Position numbers and translations under genes: made by a program
Shown: piece after piece, positions 2,012-47,418 of the stretch
How the letters are laid out: the number at the start of each line of letters is the position of its first letter
Position numbering within the stretch: the first letter of the stretch is position 1
The notes under the pieces: model-generated
Database searches by the model: none
The model's input: only the letters and a program-made list of their open reading frames with translations
What the model was told of the DNA's origin: nothing
Assembly (NCBI RefSeq): GCF_008001035.1
Contig: NZ_CP042856.1
Location: forward strand, 682,001-746,000
Origin: Salinibacterium sp. dk2585
GTDB lineage: Bacteria; Actinomycetota; Actinomycetes; Actinomycetales; Microbacteriaceae
Length of the DNA stretch: 64,000 nucleotides
Direction of reading: 5' to 3'

Positions 2012-2055
2012 CCTTTCAGAATTCAGGAAGGCAGGCCTTCCTGAATTCTGAAAGG
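2012..2055 (-). terminator. Perfect intercistronic hairpin between binding-protein and ATPase genes
   Basis: Two exactly complementary 20-nt arms (2012-2031 and 2036-2055) flank a 4-nt loop. The hairpin starts 8 nt after the binding-protein stop codon and ends before the ATPase start. There is no T-run. It most likely acts as a processing or 3' stabilising stem-loop, or as a partial attenuator, giving excess binding protein over ATPase and permease as known for other ABC operons. Confidence 0.85.
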
Positions 2056-4149: not shown

Positions 4150-4230
4150 GTCCAGCGCATAGCGTGTTCGGCTCGAGCGGTTCATCCGTTCCCCCTTCTG
4201 CCGACACGTCATGTTTGCACGGATGCCGCG

Positions 4231-4304
4231 CAACGTCGGAGATTCGGCGACACGCCGCTTGAGGTATCCGCTCGTCGCGGTGTGTCGCCGAATCTCCGAC
4301 GTTG
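4231..4304. repeat. Palindromic repeat, copy A of a three-copy family
   Basis: Two perfect 23-nt complementary arms (4231-4253 and 4282-4304) around a 28-nt loop. Each arm contains the core CGGAGATTCGGCGACAC. Related imperfect copies occur at 30731-30805 and 31800-31863. It lies between the membrane-protein gene and the arabinofuranosidase gene, so it may also stop transcription. The remaining intergenic DNA (4067-4414) holds no other gene. Confidence 0.85.
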
Positions 4305-4414
4305 CAGCGGGTCCCGGCGGGAAGCGCCATGTGGATCGCGACTCGCCTGAAGTGCACCGCGGCAGCGGGGACGTGGGACACAACACTGGGTACAGGAGAC
4401 AGAGGGAGCGGATA

Positions 4415-7748: not shown

Positions 7749-7802
7749 GAGTGGCCAAACTTTCGGCTTCCCGGGGCGCGTTGGCCGAAAGTTTGGCCAC
7801 TC
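7749..7802. terminator. Symmetric hairpin between convergent genes
   Basis: Perfect 18-nt arms (7749-7766, GAGTGGCCAAACTTTCGG, and 7785-7802) with an 18-nt loop. It lies between the ends of the alditol oxidase (plus) and xylulokinase (minus) genes, so it can serve as a bidirectional terminator. Its design (long arms, long GC loop, no T-run) matches the other intergenic palindromes, but the sequence is unrelated. Confidence 0.7.
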
Positions 7803-27483: not shown

Positions 27484-29598
27484 GTGGCTCGAAACATCTA
27501 CATCACGTCCGTTGAAGGACACGCAGGCAAGTCGACCATTGCACTCGGACTGCTTGACACCCTCACCCACGAGGCATCGCGAGTGGGCGTGTTTCGCCCG
27601 GTGGCCCGCTCTGTCGACGAGCGCGACTACGTGCTCGAGCTGCTCCTCGGTCACGGCGGGGTCGACCTCGACTACGAGGAGTGCGTCGGCGTCACCTACG
27701 ATGACGTGCACGCCGACCCGGATGCCGCTCTCTCGAGCATCGTTGAACGCTTCAAAGCGGTCGAGGCCCAGTGTGACGTCGTCGTCGTGCTCGGCTCCGA
27801 CTACACGGATGTCGGCAGCCCCACCGAACTCTCCTACAACGCCCGCATCGCGGTGAATCTCGGTGCGCCGGTGCTCCTCGTGCTCGGCGGGCAGTCCTCC
27901 GAGACTGGCGCGCGCAGCGGCGACGAACTCGCCCAGGTGTTCGGCCTCGCGATGCAGGAGCTCGAGTCCTCCCATGCCCAGCTGCTCGGCGTCGTCGCCA
28001 ACCGTGCCGAGCCTTCGCTGCAGGAGGATATCCGCGCCGCGCTTGCCGAAGCATCCGGTGACGTGCCCGTCTGGGTCATCCCTGAAGACCCATTCCTCAT
28101 CGCGCCAACGATGGCGCACCTCCTCGAGGCAGTCGACGGAACGCTCATCAAGGGCGACCCGGCGCTGCTCCAAAGGGAAGCCCTCGGCGTCGTCATGACG
28201 GGCATGTCGATGGAGAACTGCCTCACGCGCCTCATCGAGGGCGCTGTGGTCGTTGTCGCCGGTGACCGCTCCGACGTGCTTCTCGGAATGCTCATGGCGC
28301 ACACCTCCGACACCTTCCCCTCGCTCGCAGGCATCATCCTCAACGGTGGCTTCGACCTCCTCCCGCAGATCGAGCGCCTCATCGACGGTCTTGCGCCGAC
28401 ACTTCCCATCGTCCGCACCGAGTTCGGCACCTACGAAACCGCCCAGCGTGTCACCCGCACCCGAGGACGCATGGCGGCCGATTCTCCCCGCAAGTCTGAG
28501 ACGGCGATCGCGCTCTTCGAGGAGCACGTGGACGCTGGCGAGCTCCTGACGCGCATCCAGGTCTCTCGATCCGAGACGATTACGCCTCTCATGTTCGAGT
28601 ACGACCTGCTCTCCCGGGCTCGGCACCTTGCCCGCCATATCGTGCTGCCGGAGGGGAACGACGACCGCATCCTCCAGGCGGCGGGCACCCTCCTGCGGCG
28701 TAATGTCGCCAAGCTCACGATCCTCGGCGACGAGGCAGAGGTGCGCGCGCGGGCGGCCGGCCTTGGCCTCGACCTCGCGGATGCGAGCATCCTGAGCCCC
28801 TTCGAGCCGGAGCTGCGGCAGCGCTTCGCCGAGGAGTACGCCCGCCTCCGCGCCCACAAAGGCATGACGGTCGACGTCGCGAGGGAGAGGGTGACGGATG
28901 TCTCGTACTTCGGCACCATGATGGTGCACCTCGGCCTCGCCGACGGCATGGTCTCCGGCGCCGCCCACACGACCGCGCACACCATCCGGCCGGGCCTCGA
29001 GGTCATCAAGACCAGGCCAGACACCTCGGTCGTCTCAAGCATCTTCCTCATGTGCCTCGAGGACCGTGTGTTGGCCTACGGTGACTGCGCCGTGATCCCA
29101 GACCCGGATGCAGGCCAGCTCGCCGACATCGCCATCTCCTCCGCCGAGACCGCCCAGCAGTTCGGCATCGACCCGCGCGTCGCGATGCTCTCCTACTCGA
29201 CGGGAGAATCAGGCGGCGGTGCCGACGTCGAGAAAGTGCGCGAGGCCACCGCCCTCGTCCGCGGGCGACGCCCCGACCTGCCCGTCGCCGGGCCCATCCA
29301 ATACGACGCCGCAGTGGATGCCGCCGTCGGCAGGTCCAAGATGCCCGATTCAGATGTCGCGGGGCGAGCCACCGTCTTTGTGTTCCCCGACCTCAACACC
29401 GGCAACAACACCTACAAGGCGGTGCAGCGCAGTGCCGGGGCCGTCGCGATCGGCCCCGTCCTTCAGGGCCTCAACAAACCCATCAACGACCTCTCGAGGG
29501 GGGCCCTCGTGCAAGACATCGTCAACACGGTCGCAATCACGGCCATCCAGGCGGCCTCGCCGCTTGGGCCTGTCGGCACGGAGGAGTCCCGCGCGTGA
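27484..29598 (+). CDS. pta: Phosphate acetyltransferase
   Basis: Interconverts acetyl-CoA and acetyl phosphate, 704 aa, the long three-domain form. N-terminal P-loop BioD-like domain (SVEGHAGKST), central DRTGG regulatory domain (about residues 210-330), and C-terminal catalytic PTA_PTB domain from LLSRARHLARHIVLPEGNDDRIL, with SYSTGESGGGADVEKV and FPDLNTGNNTYKAVQRS. I chose GTG 27484 because TAGGGT (27472-27477) lies 6 nt before it; ATG 27481 and GTG 27478 are in frame alternatives. Overlaps ackA by 4 nt. Confidence 0.95.
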   Translation: MARNIYITSVEGHAGKSTIALGLLDTLTHEASRVGVFRPVARSVDERDYVLELLLGHGGVDLDYEECVGVTYDDVHADPDAALSSIVERFKAVEAQCDVVVVLGSDYTDVGSPTELSYNARIAVNLGAPVLLVLGGQSSETGARSGDELAQVFGLAMQELESSHAQLLGVVANRAEPSLQEDIRAALAEASGDVPVWVIPEDPFLIAPTMAHLLEAVDGTLIKGDPALLQREALGVVMTGMSMENCLTRLIEGAVVVVAGDRSDVLLGMLMAHTSDTFPSLAGIILNGGFDLLPQIERLIDGLAPTLPIVRTEFGTYETAQRVTRTRGRMAADSPRKSETAIALFEEHVDAGELLTRIQVSRSETITPLMFEYDLLSRARHLARHIVLPEGNDDRILQAAGTLLRRNVAKLTILGDEAEVRARAAGLGLDLADASILSPFEPELRQRFAEEYARLRAHKGMTVDVARERVTDVSYFGTMMVHLGLADGMVSGAAHTTAHTIRPGLEVIKTRPDTSVVSSIFLMCLEDRVLAYGDCAVIPDPDAGQLADIAISSAETAQQFGIDPRVAMLSYSTGESGGGADVEKVREATALVRGRRPDLPVAGPIQYDAAVDAAVGRSKMPDSDVAGRATVFVFPDLNTGNNTYKAVQRSAGAVAIGPVLQGLNKPINDLSRGALVQDIVNTVAITAIQAASPLGPVGTEESRA

Positions 29599-30722
29599 GC
29601 CTTGTCTTCGTCGTCAACTCCGGTTCCTCGTCGATCAAGTACCAGCTCATCGACCTCGACTCAGATGAGTCCCTTGTCGGCGGGCTCATTGAACGCATCG
29701 GCGAGGTTGGGTCCCCCATCCCCGACCACGAGTTCGGCATGAGCATCGTGCTGGCGAAGCTCGGCGACCGCGGCGATGACATCGTCGCGGTCGGGCACCG
29801 GGTCGTGCACGGCGGGCCGAACTTCAGCTCAGCGACCCTCATCGATGACGCGGTCGAGGAGGAGATCGACCAGCTCTCGGTGCTCGCGCCGCTGCACAAC
29901 CCGGGCAGCGTGCGCGGAATCCGGGCCGCTCGTGCCGCCCTGCCGAGCGTTCCCCACGTCGCAGTCTTCGACACCGCCTTCCACTCGACGCTCCCGCCGG
30001 AGGCATACACCTACGCGATCGACACCGGCGTCGCCAGCGAGTACAAGATTCGTCGCTACGGTTTCCACGGCACGTCGCACCAGTACGTGTCGCGCCGGGC
30101 CGCCGAGTTCCTGGGGCGTTCACTCGAGTCGCTCCGCACGATCGTGCTCCACCTCGGCAATGGAGCATCCGTCACAGCGGTCAACGGTGGCCGATCGGTC
30201 GATACGTCCATGGGGCTCACCCCGCTCGAGGGCCTCGTCATGGGCACCCGCTCTGGCGACATCGACGCGGGCGTCGTCTTCCACCTCGCCCGCGAGGCCG
30301 GCCTCTCGATCGACGAGATCGACGTGCTGCTCAACCGCCGCAGCGGCCTGCTCGGCCTCACCGGCACGGGAGACATGCGCGACGTGCAGGTGGCCGCCTC
30401 GGGCGGCGACGAGGTCGCTTCGGCCGCCCTCGCAGTCTGGCGCCACCGCATCCGTCACTACATCGGCGCCTACGTGGCCGGCCTCGGTGGCCTCGATGCC
30501 CTCGTCTTCACGGCGGGAATCGGCGAGAACAACGCGCTGCTGCGCCGCCGTGCGCTCGCTGGGCTCGAGTTCCTCGGCATCCATGTCGACGACGACCGCA
30601 ATGAACTCCAGTCGCGCGCAGAGCGGTACATCTCGCCTGAGGGCGCCCCTGTCGCGGTGCTCGTGATCCCCACCAACGAGGAACTCGAGATCGCCCGCCA
30701 AGCGGCGGCACTCGTGGCCTGA
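29595..30722 (+). CDS. ackA: Acetate kinase
   Basis: Makes ATP and acetate from acetyl phosphate, 375 aa. Family signatures: VVNSGSSSIKYQLID (N-terminal phosphate-1 motif), YGFHGTSHQYVSRRAAEFLG, HLGNGASVTAVNGGRSVDTSMGLTPLEG, and FTAGIGENN. Starts with GTG 29595 inside the pta stop region, so pta-ackA are coupled and form the overflow or acetate-uptake route. A palindromic repeat follows 8 nt after the stop. Confidence 0.97.
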   Translation: MSLVFVVNSGSSSIKYQLIDLDSDESLVGGLIERIGEVGSPIPDHEFGMSIVLAKLGDRGDDIVAVGHRVVHGGPNFSSATLIDDAVEEEIDQLSVLAPLHNPGSVRGIRAARAALPSVPHVAVFDTAFHSTLPPEAYTYAIDTGVASEYKIRRYGFHGTSHQYVSRRAAEFLGRSLESLRTIVLHLGNGASVTAVNGGRSVDTSMGLTPLEGLVMGTRSGDIDAGVVFHLAREAGLSIDEIDVLLNRRSGLLGLTGTGDMRDVQVAASGGDEVASAALAVWRHRIRHYIGAYVAGLGGLDALVFTAGIGENNALLRRRALAGLEFLGIHVDDDRNELQSRAERYISPEGAPVAVLVIPTNEELEIARQAAALVA

Positions 30723-30730
30723 CGCCCACC

Positions 30731-30805
30731 GCAACTTCGGAGATTCGGCGACACGCCGTGCGAATCGCCGGTGGTCTCCCGCGTGTCGCCAAACCTCCGT
30801 ACTTC
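30731..30805. repeat. Palindromic repeat, copy B
   Basis: Arms CGGAGATTCGGCGACACGC (30738-30756) and GCGTGTCGCCAAACCTCCG (30781-30799) pair at 17 of 19 positions around a 24-nt loop; the preceding GCAACTT matches copy A's flank. It lies between the convergent ends of ackA and the DUF559 gene and may terminate both. Confidence 0.8.
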
Positions 30806-30843
30806 GGGTAGCGGATGTCGCGGCTCGCGCCACTGGCACGTCG

Positions 30844-31683
30844 TCACCGTCCCCGCATCCGTCGCAGTGCCTTCGCATCCGACACCGCGCGCTCGATCGC
30901 GGCGAGGGTGTGGGGCCAGGTCTCGAAGATGTGTGCGGCGCGCAACCGCAACACGTGCCTGCCGAGTGACTCAGACTGAATATCGCGGTCTCGGTCGAGC
31001 GCGAAGCGGTCTTCCCCGTGCCATCGGCGACCATCGATCTCGAGTCCCACACAGTCTTCGACCACAAGATCCTGGTGGCCGAGTCCGGGGACGTGCCCCT
31101 GCGGCTCAACACTGAAGCCGACGTGGTGCAGTCGCAACCGAACGACAGTCTCGTTACCTGAGCCACTTGAGAAGTGCAGTTCGTCAGTCTCGCGCTGCAC
31201 TCTCCGTGGGGCATCGCGAAAGAATTTCCTGATGGCGGCGTGCGAGAGCAAGCCCTCATGGCCTGCTGACTCCAGCGCAGCGACCGCGTTCTCGGAATCG
31301 AGACAGTGCATCGCCAGCCGAAGTGCTTCCGAGGGTCCGGCTTCCACGAGACTGGCCAATCCGAAGCGCGGTTCGACCCAGTGGAGGTGCACGTCTGGGC
31401 CGCGTTTGGCGGCACTTCCCGGCAGGACCTGGACATGAACGCGTTGGTCGTGCCCAGCCCATACCCGCGCCCGTCGCAGCACGGTGACGCAGGTGATTGC
31501 ACCGCCGAGCTCTGCGGCCCGGCGGATGTCGGAGTCAACGTGAGCGCATGCGTACAGGCCCCGACGCGGTCGAGTTACTCGTCCTTCTGCGACGCCACGG
31601 CGGAGTTGCCACGCGGTGACGCCATTCGCGTACAGGGTACTCGTCGTCGCTACGTGTCCCAGTCTGCAGAGAAGAGTCGGCAT
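30844..31683 (-). CDS. DUF559 (PD-(D/E)XK nuclease-like) protein with AbiEi-type N-terminus
   Basis: A 279-aa protein of a family that is abundant but uncharacterised in actinobacteria. The N-terminus (LCRLGHVATTSTLYANGVTAWQLRRGVAEGRVTRPRRGLYA) resembles the AbiEi antitoxin-like wHTH. The C-terminal about 100 residues carry the DUF559 fold: FSVEPQGHVPGLGHQDLVVEDCVGLEIDGRRWHG, with acidic residues fitting a Vsr-like nuclease core. ATG 31683 fits where the homologous start should be; no SD or -10 box is visible. It sits alone between ackA and dnaX, flanked on both sides by copies of the palindromic repeat. Confidence 0.8.
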   Translation of the reverse strand: MPTLLCRLGHVATTSTLYANGVTAWQLRRGVAEGRVTRPRRGLYACAHVDSDIRRAAELGGAITCVTVLRRARVWAGHDQRVHVQVLPGSAAKRGPDVHLHWVEPRFGLASLVEAGPSEALRLAMHCLDSENAVAALESAGHEGLLSHAAIRKFFRDAPRRVQRETDELHFSSGSGNETVVRLRLHHVGFSVEPQGHVPGLGHQDLVVEDCVGLEIDGRRWHGEDRFALDRDRDIQSESLGRHVLRLRAAHIFETWPHTLAAIERAVSDAKALRRMRGR

Positions 31684-31799
31684 GGTGCGATGTTCGGGAG
31701 AAGGAGGAACACGGGAGCGGAGATTCTGAACTGTCGGGCGATTCGCGCTCGGGTGTCGCTTGGGGAGGAGGGACGGGGGCCTGGCCAGCACCGCAACCT

Positions 31800-31863
31800 C
31801 GGAGATCCGGCGCCACGCCGCCGCATTCACGACGTTTTCGCGCGGCATGTCGCCAAATCTCCG
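31800..31863. repeat. Palindromic repeat, copy C
   Basis: Arms CGGAGATCCGGCGCCACGCCG (31800-31820) and CGGCATGTCGCCAAATCTCCG (31843-31863) pair at 17 of 21 positions, 22-nt loop, preceded by GCAAC as in copies A and B. It lies between the divergent DUF559 and dnaX genes. The rest of this gap (31684-31980) holds only the dnaX promoter. Confidence 0.75.
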
Positions 31864-31980
31864 CAGTTCGGGTGGCAGCATGTGCCGACGCGCGATGCGT
31901 GACGGCGGAGCGTGCGGTCGTCGCCTCGACCGCGCGACTCCCGGCGTCCGCTGTCGGTGGCCCCGACTACGATTGAGCCC

Positions 31981-34413
31981 GTGGTTACCGCCCTTTATCG
32001 CCGCTACCGGCCCGAGACCTTTGCCGAGCTCATCGGGCAGTCGCAGGTGACCGATCCGCTCGCGACCGCGTTGCGCACCGATCGGGTCAACCACGCCTAC
32101 CTCTTCAGCGGTCCGAGGGGCTGCGGCAAAACGACATCCGCCCGCATCCTGGCGCGCTGCCTCAACTGTGCCGAGGGTCCCACCGACACGCCCTGCGGCG
32201 TGTGCCCCAGCTGTGTCGAGTTGAGCCGCGACGGGGGCGGCTCCCTCGATGTCGTCGAGATCGACGCCGCCAGTCACAACGGTGTCGACGACGCGCGCGA
32301 CCTTCGCGAGCGGGCGGTCTTCGCTCCCGCGCGTGACCGCTTCAAGATCTTCATCCTCGATGAGGCCCACATGGTCACGCCGCAGGGCTTCAACGCGCTC
32401 CTCAAGATCGTCGAAGAACCGCCGGAGCACATCAAGTTCATCTTCGCGACGACCGAGCCAGACAAGGTCATCGGCACGATCCGCTCGCGCACGCACCACT
32501 ATCCGTTCCGCCTGGTGCCGCCCGCCCAGATGCTCGACTACGTGGGTCACCTCTGCGAGAGCGAGGGCGTCGCGGTCGAGGCGGGTGTGCTTCCCCTCGT
32601 CGTGCGGGCCGGTGGTGGCTCTGTGCGTGACACGCTGTCCCTGCTCGACCAGCTCATTGCCGGCTCGGAGGGCGACACGGTCGTCTACGAGCGAGCCGTC
32701 GCGCTCCTCGGCTACACCCACGGCGCACTGCTGGGCGAAGTCATCGATGCCCTCGGCGCGAAGGATGCCTCGGCGGCGTTTGAGACGGTCGATCGCGTCA
32801 TCCAGACGGGGCAAGACCCGCGCCGCTTCGTCGAAGACCTGCTCGAGAAGCTCCGCGACCTGATCGTCGTGAGCGCCTTCCCGCTCGGCAACCACCAGGG
32901 CGCCGCAGCCGTACTGCGGGGCGTGCAGCCCGACGAGCTCGACCACATGGCGCAGCAGGCGGCCCGCTTCGGCCAGGCCGAGCTGAGCCGCACGGCAGAC
33001 ATCGTCGCCTCCGCACTCACCGAGATGACGGGCGCCACCTCACCGCGACTGCACCTCGAACTCATGGTCGCGCGCGTGCTGGTGCCGGCATCCGACGACA
33101 CCGAGCGCGGAGCGCTTGCCCGCGTCGAGCGTCTCGAGCGCCGGGTCGGGGTGGCGGCGGATGTCGCGCCGGCCGCGCAGTCGCAGGCGAGCGTCTCGGC
33201 CGAGATACACTCGCGCGTCGCGCCCGCTCCCGCGTCGATCCCGGCAGCGTCCCGCGCGGCATCCGCCTCTCCCGCCGAGCCTGCGCCGACCCCGCCCGCT
33301 GCCGCCCGGCCCTCCGCCGCCCAGCCCGCCAGCGAGGAGCGCCCTGCCCCCGCAGTCGAGCCCGCCGCGACGAGAGGCCCCGCGAGTCCTGCCGCGACAG
33401 GCCCTGCCGTGACAGGCACTCCCGCCGGGCCCACGGTGGAACGCGGCGCCGAAGCCGCGCCAGCAGAGAGCGCCACGCCGTCCGAGCAGGTTCCCCCGCC
33501 CCAGCAGCCGGTCGGCCCCGTCACCGTGCAGCAGGTGCGGGATGCCTGGCCGCAGATCCTCGACGCGGTGCAGCAGGCCAAGCGCACCGCGTGGATGGTG
33601 CTGTTCACGGCGCAGGTGCGTGAGCTGCGCGACGGAGACGTGCTCGTGCTCGAGTTCCCGAGCCAGAAAGACGTCGAGTCGCTCAAGGCGCAGTCCGCGC
33701 CGGGGGAGGGCGTCGGCGACTACCTCAAGCGCGGTGTCGCATCCGTGCTCGGCATCACCCCGAAGCTCATCGCCCGCGTGGCCGCCACGGGGGCAGCCGC
33801 CGCGCCGTCCTCCGCCGCGCCCACCTCGGGAGCGCGGGCACAGGGACGCCCTCCGCAGTCCCCGTCGAGCGCACCGTCCCGGCAGGCTCCCTCGGCCAGG
33901 TCCAGCGCGCCGGCCCAGCGAAATGACGGCGGGTCTTCGGAGGTGGCACCCAGCGCGACCGTCTCCGACTGGGCGACCGTCGCGATCCCCGGTGCCGAGA
34001 CTGGTGCGCCGGTGGAGCCGTCCGCAACAGGCTCAGCACCCGCATCCCCTGGCGGCGCGCGGGTGAGCGCAGCGCCTGACAGCCGCGCTGCGGCCGATGC
34101 CAGCCGTGACGACGAGCCGCCGTTCGATGATGAGCCGCCCTTCGACCCCGACTATGACAGGGTGCCGCCGCCCGGCGAGCCCGGTGCGCCCTCCGGAGCA
34201 CGCCGCCCGTCCTCGCAGGGGGCATCCGGTGGCCAGCAGAGGCCGGCCAAAGCGCCGAACAGCGGGCGCCCGCAGGCGAGTGCGCCGGCGCGGCAGGGCG
34301 CTCCCCACAACGGCCCGCAGAAGTACGGCGAGGCCGTCGTGCGGCAGGTGCTCGGTGCGACCTTCATCGAAGAGCAGCCCCACACTCCGCGCGTGACCCC
34401 AGGGATGAACTGA
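31981..34413 (+). CDS. dnaX: DNA polymerase III subunits gamma/tau
   Basis: Clamp-loader ATPase, 810 aa. Walker [10 protein letters not shown] (about residues 44-52), a zinc module with cysteines in [19 protein letters not shown], Walker [10 protein letters not shown], and sensor 1 [10 protein letters not shown]. After residue about 390 a long Ala/Pro-rich linker interrupts, then a tau-like domain ([31 protein letters not shown]), then another disordered Ser/Pro/Ala tail with acidic repeats ([17 protein letters not shown]). GTG 31981 has TACGAT 7 nt before it. Two nt before recR. Confidence 0.96.
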
Positions 34414-47350: not shown

Positions 47351-47418
47351 GGGTTGAGTAGCGCGGTTCGCGCAATCGCTGGCGCGATCGCCAACGAGCG
47401 AACCGCGCTACTCAACCC
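47351..47418. terminator. Long palindrome between convergent RidA and acs genes
   Basis: Perfect 21-nt arms (47351-47371 and 47398-47418; core GGGTTGAGTAGCGCGG) around a 26-nt loop that itself folds (GCGATTGCGCG-like). No T-run. Probable bidirectional terminator; it shares the GGGTTGAG start with the repeat at 22679. Confidence 0.75.

Follow-up and report, generated by a model that had tools for sequence, protein, structure and literature searches.

The window analyzed here, a 64,000-nucleotide stretch of the Salinibacterium sp. dk2585 genome (G000), carries a gene for a protein designated P0001 that lies between ackA and dnaX and is bracketed by two palindromes, with a third palindrome elsewhere in the window (Table 1). 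The gene and the three palindromes were located where an earlier, sequence-only reading of the window had placed them. With up to three mismatches allowed, the palindrome arm CGGAGATTCGGCGACACG matched seven times in the window, namely, at the six arms of palindromes A, B, and C and, with three mismatches, at positions 632 to 649. This is far above the number obtained in shuffled windows (mean, 0.27 matches; maximum, 2).

Table 1. Genes and palindromes of the locus, in window coordinates
Feature	Position	Strand	Description
Palindrome A	4230..4305		Dispersed copy of the same type as B and C; 29-nt arms, 97% complementary
ackA	29595..30722	+	Left neighbor; Pfam Acetate_kinase, E = 8.5e-139
Palindrome B	30731..30806		Stop side of the gene, between the gene and ackA; two inverted half-sites, 20-nt spacer
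P0001 gene	30844..31683	-	279 aa; AbiEi-like module (residues ~1-171) fused to a predicted Vsr/EDxHD-type PD-(D/E)XK nuclease (residues ~174-272)
Palindrome C	31793..31870		Start side of the gene, between the gene and dnaX; half-sites of the B type, 22-nt spacer
dnaX	31981..34413	+	Right neighbor, DNA polymerase III gamma/tau; Pfam DNA_pol3_delta2 and DNA_pol3_gamma3

Architecture and copies of the palindromes

Each of the three palindromes consists of two inverted half-sites with the consensus GCAACTTCGGAGATTCGGCGACACGCCG, separated by spacers of 20 to 22 nt that have no common sequence; the paired 18-mers start 44, 44, and 46 bp apart. DNA folding was very strong for A (z = -10.6), moderate for B (z = -2.7), and weak for C (z = -1.6, a value equaled by 18 of 200 shuffles). 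B and C are thus regarded as imperfect palindromes with common half-sites. Because strict ungapped inverted-repeat detection misses both of them, a core-plus-arm scan and a sequence-agnostic arm test were used for the comparisons described below. B occupies the convergent end of ackA and the gene, and C lies in the divergent gap between the gene and dnaX. Rfam returned a single match up to an E value of 1, far below its gathering score. Further perfect inverted repeats with 19- to 21-nt arms are present at window positions 2012 to 2055, 7749 to 7802, and 47351 to 47418; their sequence is not of the A/B/C family.

A covariance model built from the copies, with which 150 of 2,882 first-look candidates were scored, identified six copies in the 2.84-Mb genome, at 49, 131, 335, 686 (A), 712.7 (B), and 713.8 (C) kb. 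A seventh, diverged variant at positions 1,118,919 to 1,118,956 (L174) has the exact CGACACGCCG core and different outer arms. With six copies and this one variant, the copy number in the genome is low. The equivalent site in G001, where the flanking gene is 91% identical, has no counterpart of the 131-kb copy; the intergenic sequences have diverged too far for a clean insertion or a target duplication to be recognizable, and neither was seen.

Domain composition of P0001

P0001 matched the Pfam families AbiEi_4 (E = 6e-4) and MTES_1575 REase (E = 7e-5), both below the Pfam cutoffs. Among 40 relatives of P0001, 34 matched MTES_1575, 27 matched DUF559, and 21 matched AbiEi_4 at an E value of 0.01. 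By sequence, the C-terminal domain belongs to the DUF559/MTES_1575 Vsr-like REases, and MTES_1575_REase has been described as a Vsr-fold REase (PMC3710099).

In the AlphaFold2 model of P0001 (pLDDT, 94.5; pTM, 0.89), residues 1 to 171 matched the AbiEi antitoxin structure 6y8q by Foldseek (E = 1.7e-5) and, with a middling score, by VIA-align (Z = 6.0; rmsd, 4.5; 161 aligned). Residues 175 to 272 aligned with the catalytic domain of the homing endonuclease I-Bth0305I (Z = 11.7; rmsd, 2.3; 95 aligned), which is the closest nuclease fold to the C-terminal part, and with Vsr (1cw0; Z = 9.8; rmsd, 2.6; 100 aligned). At the level of the predicted fold, this agrees with the Vsr-like C-terminal domain that had been proposed from the sequence. 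Across 40 relatives that are 23 to 53% identical to P0001, E178, Q195, D205, and D230 are invariant, while E215, D217, and H222 are near-invariant (at least 90% conserved). Such conservation is as expected for a working nuclease, and the conserved acidic and histidine residues may be read as an EDxHD motif.

No AbiEii toxin gene was found beside the gene at the window locus, where the neighbors are ackA and dnaX. A gene caller based on codon usage and trained on the long open reading frames of the regions missed the P0001 gene, the codon use of which seems unlike that of the host, a feature also of genes that were acquired recently or are expressed weakly. Relatives of P0001 were also retrieved from four plasmid records and one phage record; the three plasmid loci that were read had no matching palindrome pair.

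Matching palindromes beside the homologs

Two sets of homologs were used. Set 1 comprised 61 of the 73 homologous genes in 59 regions, picked by protein similarity alone and regardless of palindromes; the other 12 candidates were left out because of short contigs or weak hits. Set 2 was made up of 70 places taken from those listed for 45 further genomes (profile A2), with 67 remaining after removal of three places that repeated set 1 (L193, L219, and L236). Set 2 is biased toward palindromes, as the 40 places selected by us come nearly all from genomes with exact-core palindromes; set 1 is free of this bias. All 128 homolog rows match profile A3, with strand and frame taken from the hits. Control genes were called in the set 1 regions with a simple gene caller of our own.

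The sequence-agnostic test asks whether both flanks of a gene hold inverted repeats with mutually matching arms, longer loops being allowed. At an arm match of 11, matching palindromes were present on both flanks of 60 of the 128 homologs (27/61 in set 1 and 33/67 in set 2), compared with 2 of 656 other genes. Among wide-flank controls, i.e., those with at least 80 bp of noncoding DNA on both sides, a two-sided pair occurred in 1 of 137. The outcome was similar at other arm matches: at 9, 65/128 homologs versus 15/656 controls (2/137 wide-flank controls); at 10, 62/128 versus 6 controls; and at 13, 54/128 versus 1 control. An earlier version of the test without the longer loops retrieved pairs at 57/128 homologs versus 2/229 controls (22/61 versus 2/137 when set 1 was compared with the wide-flank controls), and a cruder match score between left and right flanks, at a value of at least 16, was reached by 34/61 genes of set 1 versus 6/229 controls and by 41/70 of set 2. 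These counts bear out the REP/RAYT-like link between DUF559 proteins and the palindromes that had been suggested from the window alone.

At a score of at least 19, the core-plus-arm scan of 60 regions gave 22 matches in real sequence and 1 in shuffled sequence. Eighteen of the 22 core-type palindromes lay within 500 bp of a homolog, versus an expectation of 5.3% of the sequence (59 regions; binomial P = 8e-20). In the test that the sequence-only reading had proposed, the distance between palindromes and these genes is thus shorter than expected. Region L164, which has no homolog, was part of the 60-region scan and lies outside the 59-region counts. One of the 18 near-gene matches, that at L137, consists of a tandem repeat and is probably spurious.

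Of the 54 homolog-bearing genomes, 32 have one or more flanked genes. For the 57 flanked genes, the median distance between the element and the end of the homology hit was 132 bp on the start side, with a narrow range, and 46 bp on the stop side. A palindrome model, with up to 74 candidates scored per genome, found matches in 14 of 59 relatives, and P0001 found matches in 30 of the same 59. One palindrome on each side of the gene was found in eight genomes (G000, G002, G004, G010, G012, G020, G025, and G027); one of the flanking palindromes in G025 scores 18.5.

No matching pair was detectable for 68 of the 128 homologs, including two of the four in the window's own genome; some arms among these homologs are degenerate or widely spaced. 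The homolog from a Glaciihabitans MAG, the sole named relative of P0001 in a database scan, has palindromes on both sides in a sensitive scan, the left copy being degenerate, and a three-mismatch search finds neither. An equal presence of the repeats in strains without DUF559 proteins, which had been named as the outcome that would tell against the link, was seen in part only. G001 has three window-type palindromes, its only homolog being a distant paralog with other flanks, and G005 has three exact-core palindromes with no homolog found. The association between gene and palindromes recurs well beyond the ackA-dnaX locus.

Several loci show additional repeats. In G037, from another family of the order, ~140 bp comprising the tail of the upstream gene and a near-perfect palindrome is repeated on either side of the homolog (L109:8747-10135), as if the gene had inserted with a target duplication. 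A long, nearly identical repeat flanks the homolog in G054 on both sides (L161). Five palindromes of another type (GCCGAAAACGAAGGAGAT-like) are found within 19.5 kb around a homolog in G004 (C1:1784000-1803500; L085/L156), and arms related to GCCGAAAACGAAGGAGAT also occur in G033 (L052).

Arm types go with the protein

The type of palindrome arm goes with the protein. Over the 57 flanked genes, arm similarity and protein similarity gave a rank correlation of 0.18 (P = 0.001). Pairs with at least 40% identity (n = 89) had a mean arm score of 7.1, versus 5.3 when permuted (P = 2e-4), and those with at least 50% identity (n = 11) had a mean arm score of 10.5 (P = 2e-4). Joint inheritance alone could be the source of this correlation. 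Seven homologs from six genomes have CGGAAAYTCAGGAG arms, and all fall inside one 17-row branch of a 128-row tree built by a quick method. On this tree, the CGGAAAYTCAGGAG label requires 4 changes, versus a shuffled mean of 6.9, with none of 500 shuffles as low. The label for palindromes on both sides requires 38 changes versus 42.2 when shuffled (51/500 as low); its scatter over the tree argues for no single origin.

Arms that flank a given gene resemble one another and differ from those at the next paralog. In G123, the homolog at C3:563160 has GATCAGGACG arms on both sides, an outcome that had been predicted beforehand, and the paralog at C1:471998 has GCGGATCCGGAGATC arms on both sides. 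The exact-core copies in this genome include at least two arm types; nine sampled dispersed copies comprised four that were GATCAGGACG-like and five that were GGATCCGCAG-like or close. One G020 paralog, which has an internal stop, has GGATCCGG arms, and another has ACCGCGTGTAGGT arms. The window arm TCGGAGATTCGG also flanks the Glaciihabitans gene, the product of which is 55% identical to P0001. In the congeners G002 and G004, proteins encoded beside ackA are 35 to 37% identical to P0001, and the arms are GGAGGAGAT and CAGGAGAA.

Dispersed copies and half-site spacing

The exact pattern CGACACGCCG-N(8-38)-CGGCGTGTCG was found in 28 of 150 genomes of the family, and the same pattern read backwards was found in 1 of 150. 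Copy numbers reached 46 in G160, 40 in G123, and 12 in G020. Although spacers of 8 to 38 nt were allowed, 80 of the 87 places listed have a spacer of 18 to 20 nt. The CGGAAAYTCAGGAG arm was present in 6 of 36 genomes of the same family and, as a single match, in 1 of 23 others, with none for the backwards pattern. There were 38 matches in G025, 47 in G033, 19 in G027, and 13 in G026, counts that include the copies beside genes. All six of the same-family genomes have a homolog with this arm, or a slightly relaxed form of it, in both flanks; one of the four CGGAAAYTCAGGAG arms around the homolog is missing in G027 and in G033.

The distribution of CGGAAAYTCAGGAG matches differs between genomes. 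The matches crowd on the contig of the homolog in G033 (45/47 on C12, 308 kb) and G027 (17/19 on C6, 228 kb), which suggests local spread in some genomes; in G025, they occur all round the chromosome.

In the sampled copies, the arms are conserved and the spacers differ between nearly all copies. Whole elements have thus not simply been copied, i.e., they are not simple copy-paste units. The sole shared spacer that was found belongs to a tandem duplication in G160, with two palindromes 155 bp apart (L303:925-1119). Spacers in G160 share an inner inverted pattern (CRTYY...), and the half-site may accordingly be longer in this genome. A nearly fixed spacing with variable content would be a requirement of two half-sites bound by protein, whereas a hairpin loop would not need it.

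We also considered conservation of a hairpin. Covariation did not support it with the six copies of the window's own genome. In four multicopy sets, most deviations were one-sided, and compensatory changes were not clearly above independence. The covariation found in G123 was reached in 29 of 500 shuffles, in a set that mixes arm types. Copies from G160, G123, and G020 in these sets were mostly picked by their core, which biases the conservation of the core but not that of the outer arms. Conservation does not seem to lie in base pairing as such.

Presence and absence at the ackA-dnaX site

The neighbor of ackA is a palindrome-flanked homolog in G002, G004, G012, and the Glaciihabitans MAG, the last of which also has the ackA-X-dnaX order. 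In G010, a palindrome-flanked homolog lies beside dnaX, with ackA ~9 kb away. The ackA-dnaX gap of the congener G003 measures ~87 bp, with no gene and no palindrome found. The corresponding interval in another congener, G001, holds ~5 kb of other, unrelated genes and no repeat (L296:1885-7016); by eye, these genes include a signal peptidase-like gene and a LuxR-type regulator-like gene. Both genomes bear on a question raised in the sequence-only reading: where the gene is missing from this locus, the repeats are missing too. From this pattern of presence and absence, the gene and its repeats appear and disappear jointly at this site, and the ackA-dnaX interval seems to be a recurrent insertion site.

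Comparison with known systems

The layout most closely resembling this one among the systems compared is that of REP/REPIN-RAYT. In the published descriptions consulted, every RAYT gene has an inverted REP pair at its flanks, and a REPIN is made of a spacer between conserved ends in inverted orientation (PMC2817692 and PMC3116915). As in those accounts, repeats bracket a single gene and have further copies scattered through intergenic DNA; inverted conserved half-sites surround a less conserved spacer of set length; and the repeat type is specific to the gene, with several gene/repeat types in some genomes. Unlike RAYTs, which are HUH/Y1 transposases, the enzyme here is a predicted AbiEi-Vsr/EDxHD nuclease. 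RAYT (Y1_Tnp, PF01797) was found in none of 17 genomes, in a search that was positive in 5 of 14 known genomes used as a control. The VIA-align matches of the P0001 model likewise name no RAYT, a point that does not count as evidence of absence. The consensus arm of the window type also lacks the GTAG head of REPs, while the G020 type ACCGCGTGTAGGT happens to contain GTAG, and the host lineage here is Actinomycetota, unlike that of the REP/RAYT cases compared. Because the layout is the same and the defining enzyme feature fails, we describe the system as working like REP/RAYT rather than as a member; counted by layout instead of enzyme, it would be a REP/RAYT variant.

The N-terminal module shares the predicted two-domain AbiEi fold with the antitoxin of the type IV toxin-antitoxin system AbiE, which is reported to bind inverted repeats (PMC7319586). 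Unlike AbiE, P0001 has a C-terminal nuclease fused to this module and, in the window, no AbiEii partner beside it, and its palindromes lie to either side of the gene as well as at other genomic sites. The predicted nuclease fold and the conserved acidic and histidine set are like those of the EDxHD homing endonuclease I-Bth0305I and of Vsr. Unlike these enzymes, P0001 is not encoded in an intron, has an AbiEi-type DNA-binding module, and is tied to dispersed palindromes. VsrA, a DUF559 protein, has been tied to DNA damage in Caulobacter without a methyltransferase (PMC12907096); in such descriptions of DUF559 proteins, as far as they were covered, no repeat partnership like the present one was found. 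More generally, no link between DUF559 or AbiEi-Vsr proteins and palindromic repeats was found in searches confined to the open PMC literature or in a term search of the RepRanger survey (PMC12306157). The novelty of the partnership is therefore provisional.

Proposed mechanism and alternatives

We favor, with moderate confidence, a nuclease-repeat partnership that works like REP/RAYT with an unrelated enzyme. In its wider form, which we hold with a similar, modest preference, this would be a widespread actinobacterial system in which AbiEi-Vsr/DUF559 fusions each act on a private REPIN-like family and spread or maintain it, making it an independent, non-HUH counterpart of REP/RAYT with coevolution of protein and repeat and coexisting paralogous pairs. 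AbiEi antitoxins are reported to autoregulate through inverted repeats in their own promoter (PMC7319586), and I-Bth0305I is described as dimerizing on a DNA target that spans nearly 60 bp (PMC3943268). With modules of these two types fused in one protein, and a ~76-bp palindrome of set spacing next to its gene, the arrangement points to a dimer seated on the half-sites and cutting or nicking the DNA in between. The AbiEi-like part would bind the half-sites of its own palindrome type, and the Vsr/EDxHD nuclease, probably a dimer on the two inverted half-sites, may cut or nick the element, with the variable spacer as a possible site. Repair could then copy, maintain, or lose palindromes in trans. 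The gene would stay between two copies, which may double as its operator and act as donors.

The AbiEi resemblance also raises the possibility of autoregulation only, in which the AbiEi-like module represses its own gene at the palindromes, the nuclease has a separate defense or toxin activity, and the dispersed copies are extra operators. The match of residues 1 to 171 to AbiEi, the binding of promoter inverted repeats reported for AbiEi antitoxins (PMC7319586), and the narrow range of start-side distances are all consistent with such a role. However, a palindrome is equally present on the stop side of the 57 flanked genes, B itself sits at a convergent gene end, some genomes have dozens of copies, and the window gene has ackA and dnaX rather than a toxin gene as its neighbors. 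As the stop-side palindromes are as constant as those on the start side, autoregulation alone does not explain the layout, and we consider it unlikely.

Equally improbable in our estimation is a selfish gene of the homing type. Here, the nuclease would cleave an allelic or ectopic palindrome, and repair would copy the gene between two palindromes, such that the palindrome is both target and flank and the dispersed copies are relics or targets. The proximity of the predicted fold to I-Bth0305I, a dimer on a target of nearly 60 bp in the published account (PMC3943268), would fit this scheme, as would the presence or absence of the unit at ackA-dnaX among congeners and the repeat on either side of the L109 gene. 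Paralogs within one genome have different palindrome types, however; no palindrome was found at the empty G003 site; and there are far more dispersed copies than genes in G123, G160, and G025. Finally, co-residence, in which the palindromes would be host repeats or bidirectional terminators and would collect, as foreign genes do, where intergenic DNA is permissive, is disfavored and very improbable: an intergenic position is indeed common to gene and palindromes, and B sits at a convergent end, but pairs are nearly absent from the wide-flank controls (1/137, versus 60/128 homologs), arms are alike around one gene and different at the next paralog, and C lies in a divergent gap, so that the chance coexistence at convergent gene ends allowed for by the sequence-only reading does not describe C.

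Implications

Many bacteria have short palindromic repeats. In the literature covered, the enzymes tied to these repeats belong to the HUH RAYT family, and a large group of the repeats reportedly has no transposase dedicated to it (PMC3733652). If the partnership of nuclease and palindromes proposed here is correct, a second, unrelated enzyme would be tied to such repeats, and the arrangement of a nuclease plus palindromes would have arisen more than once. It would also provide a likely substrate for the large and little-studied AbiEi/DUF559 group. Since each gene would name its own palindrome, specificity could be swapped and measured, and the origin and spread of the repeats would become testable.
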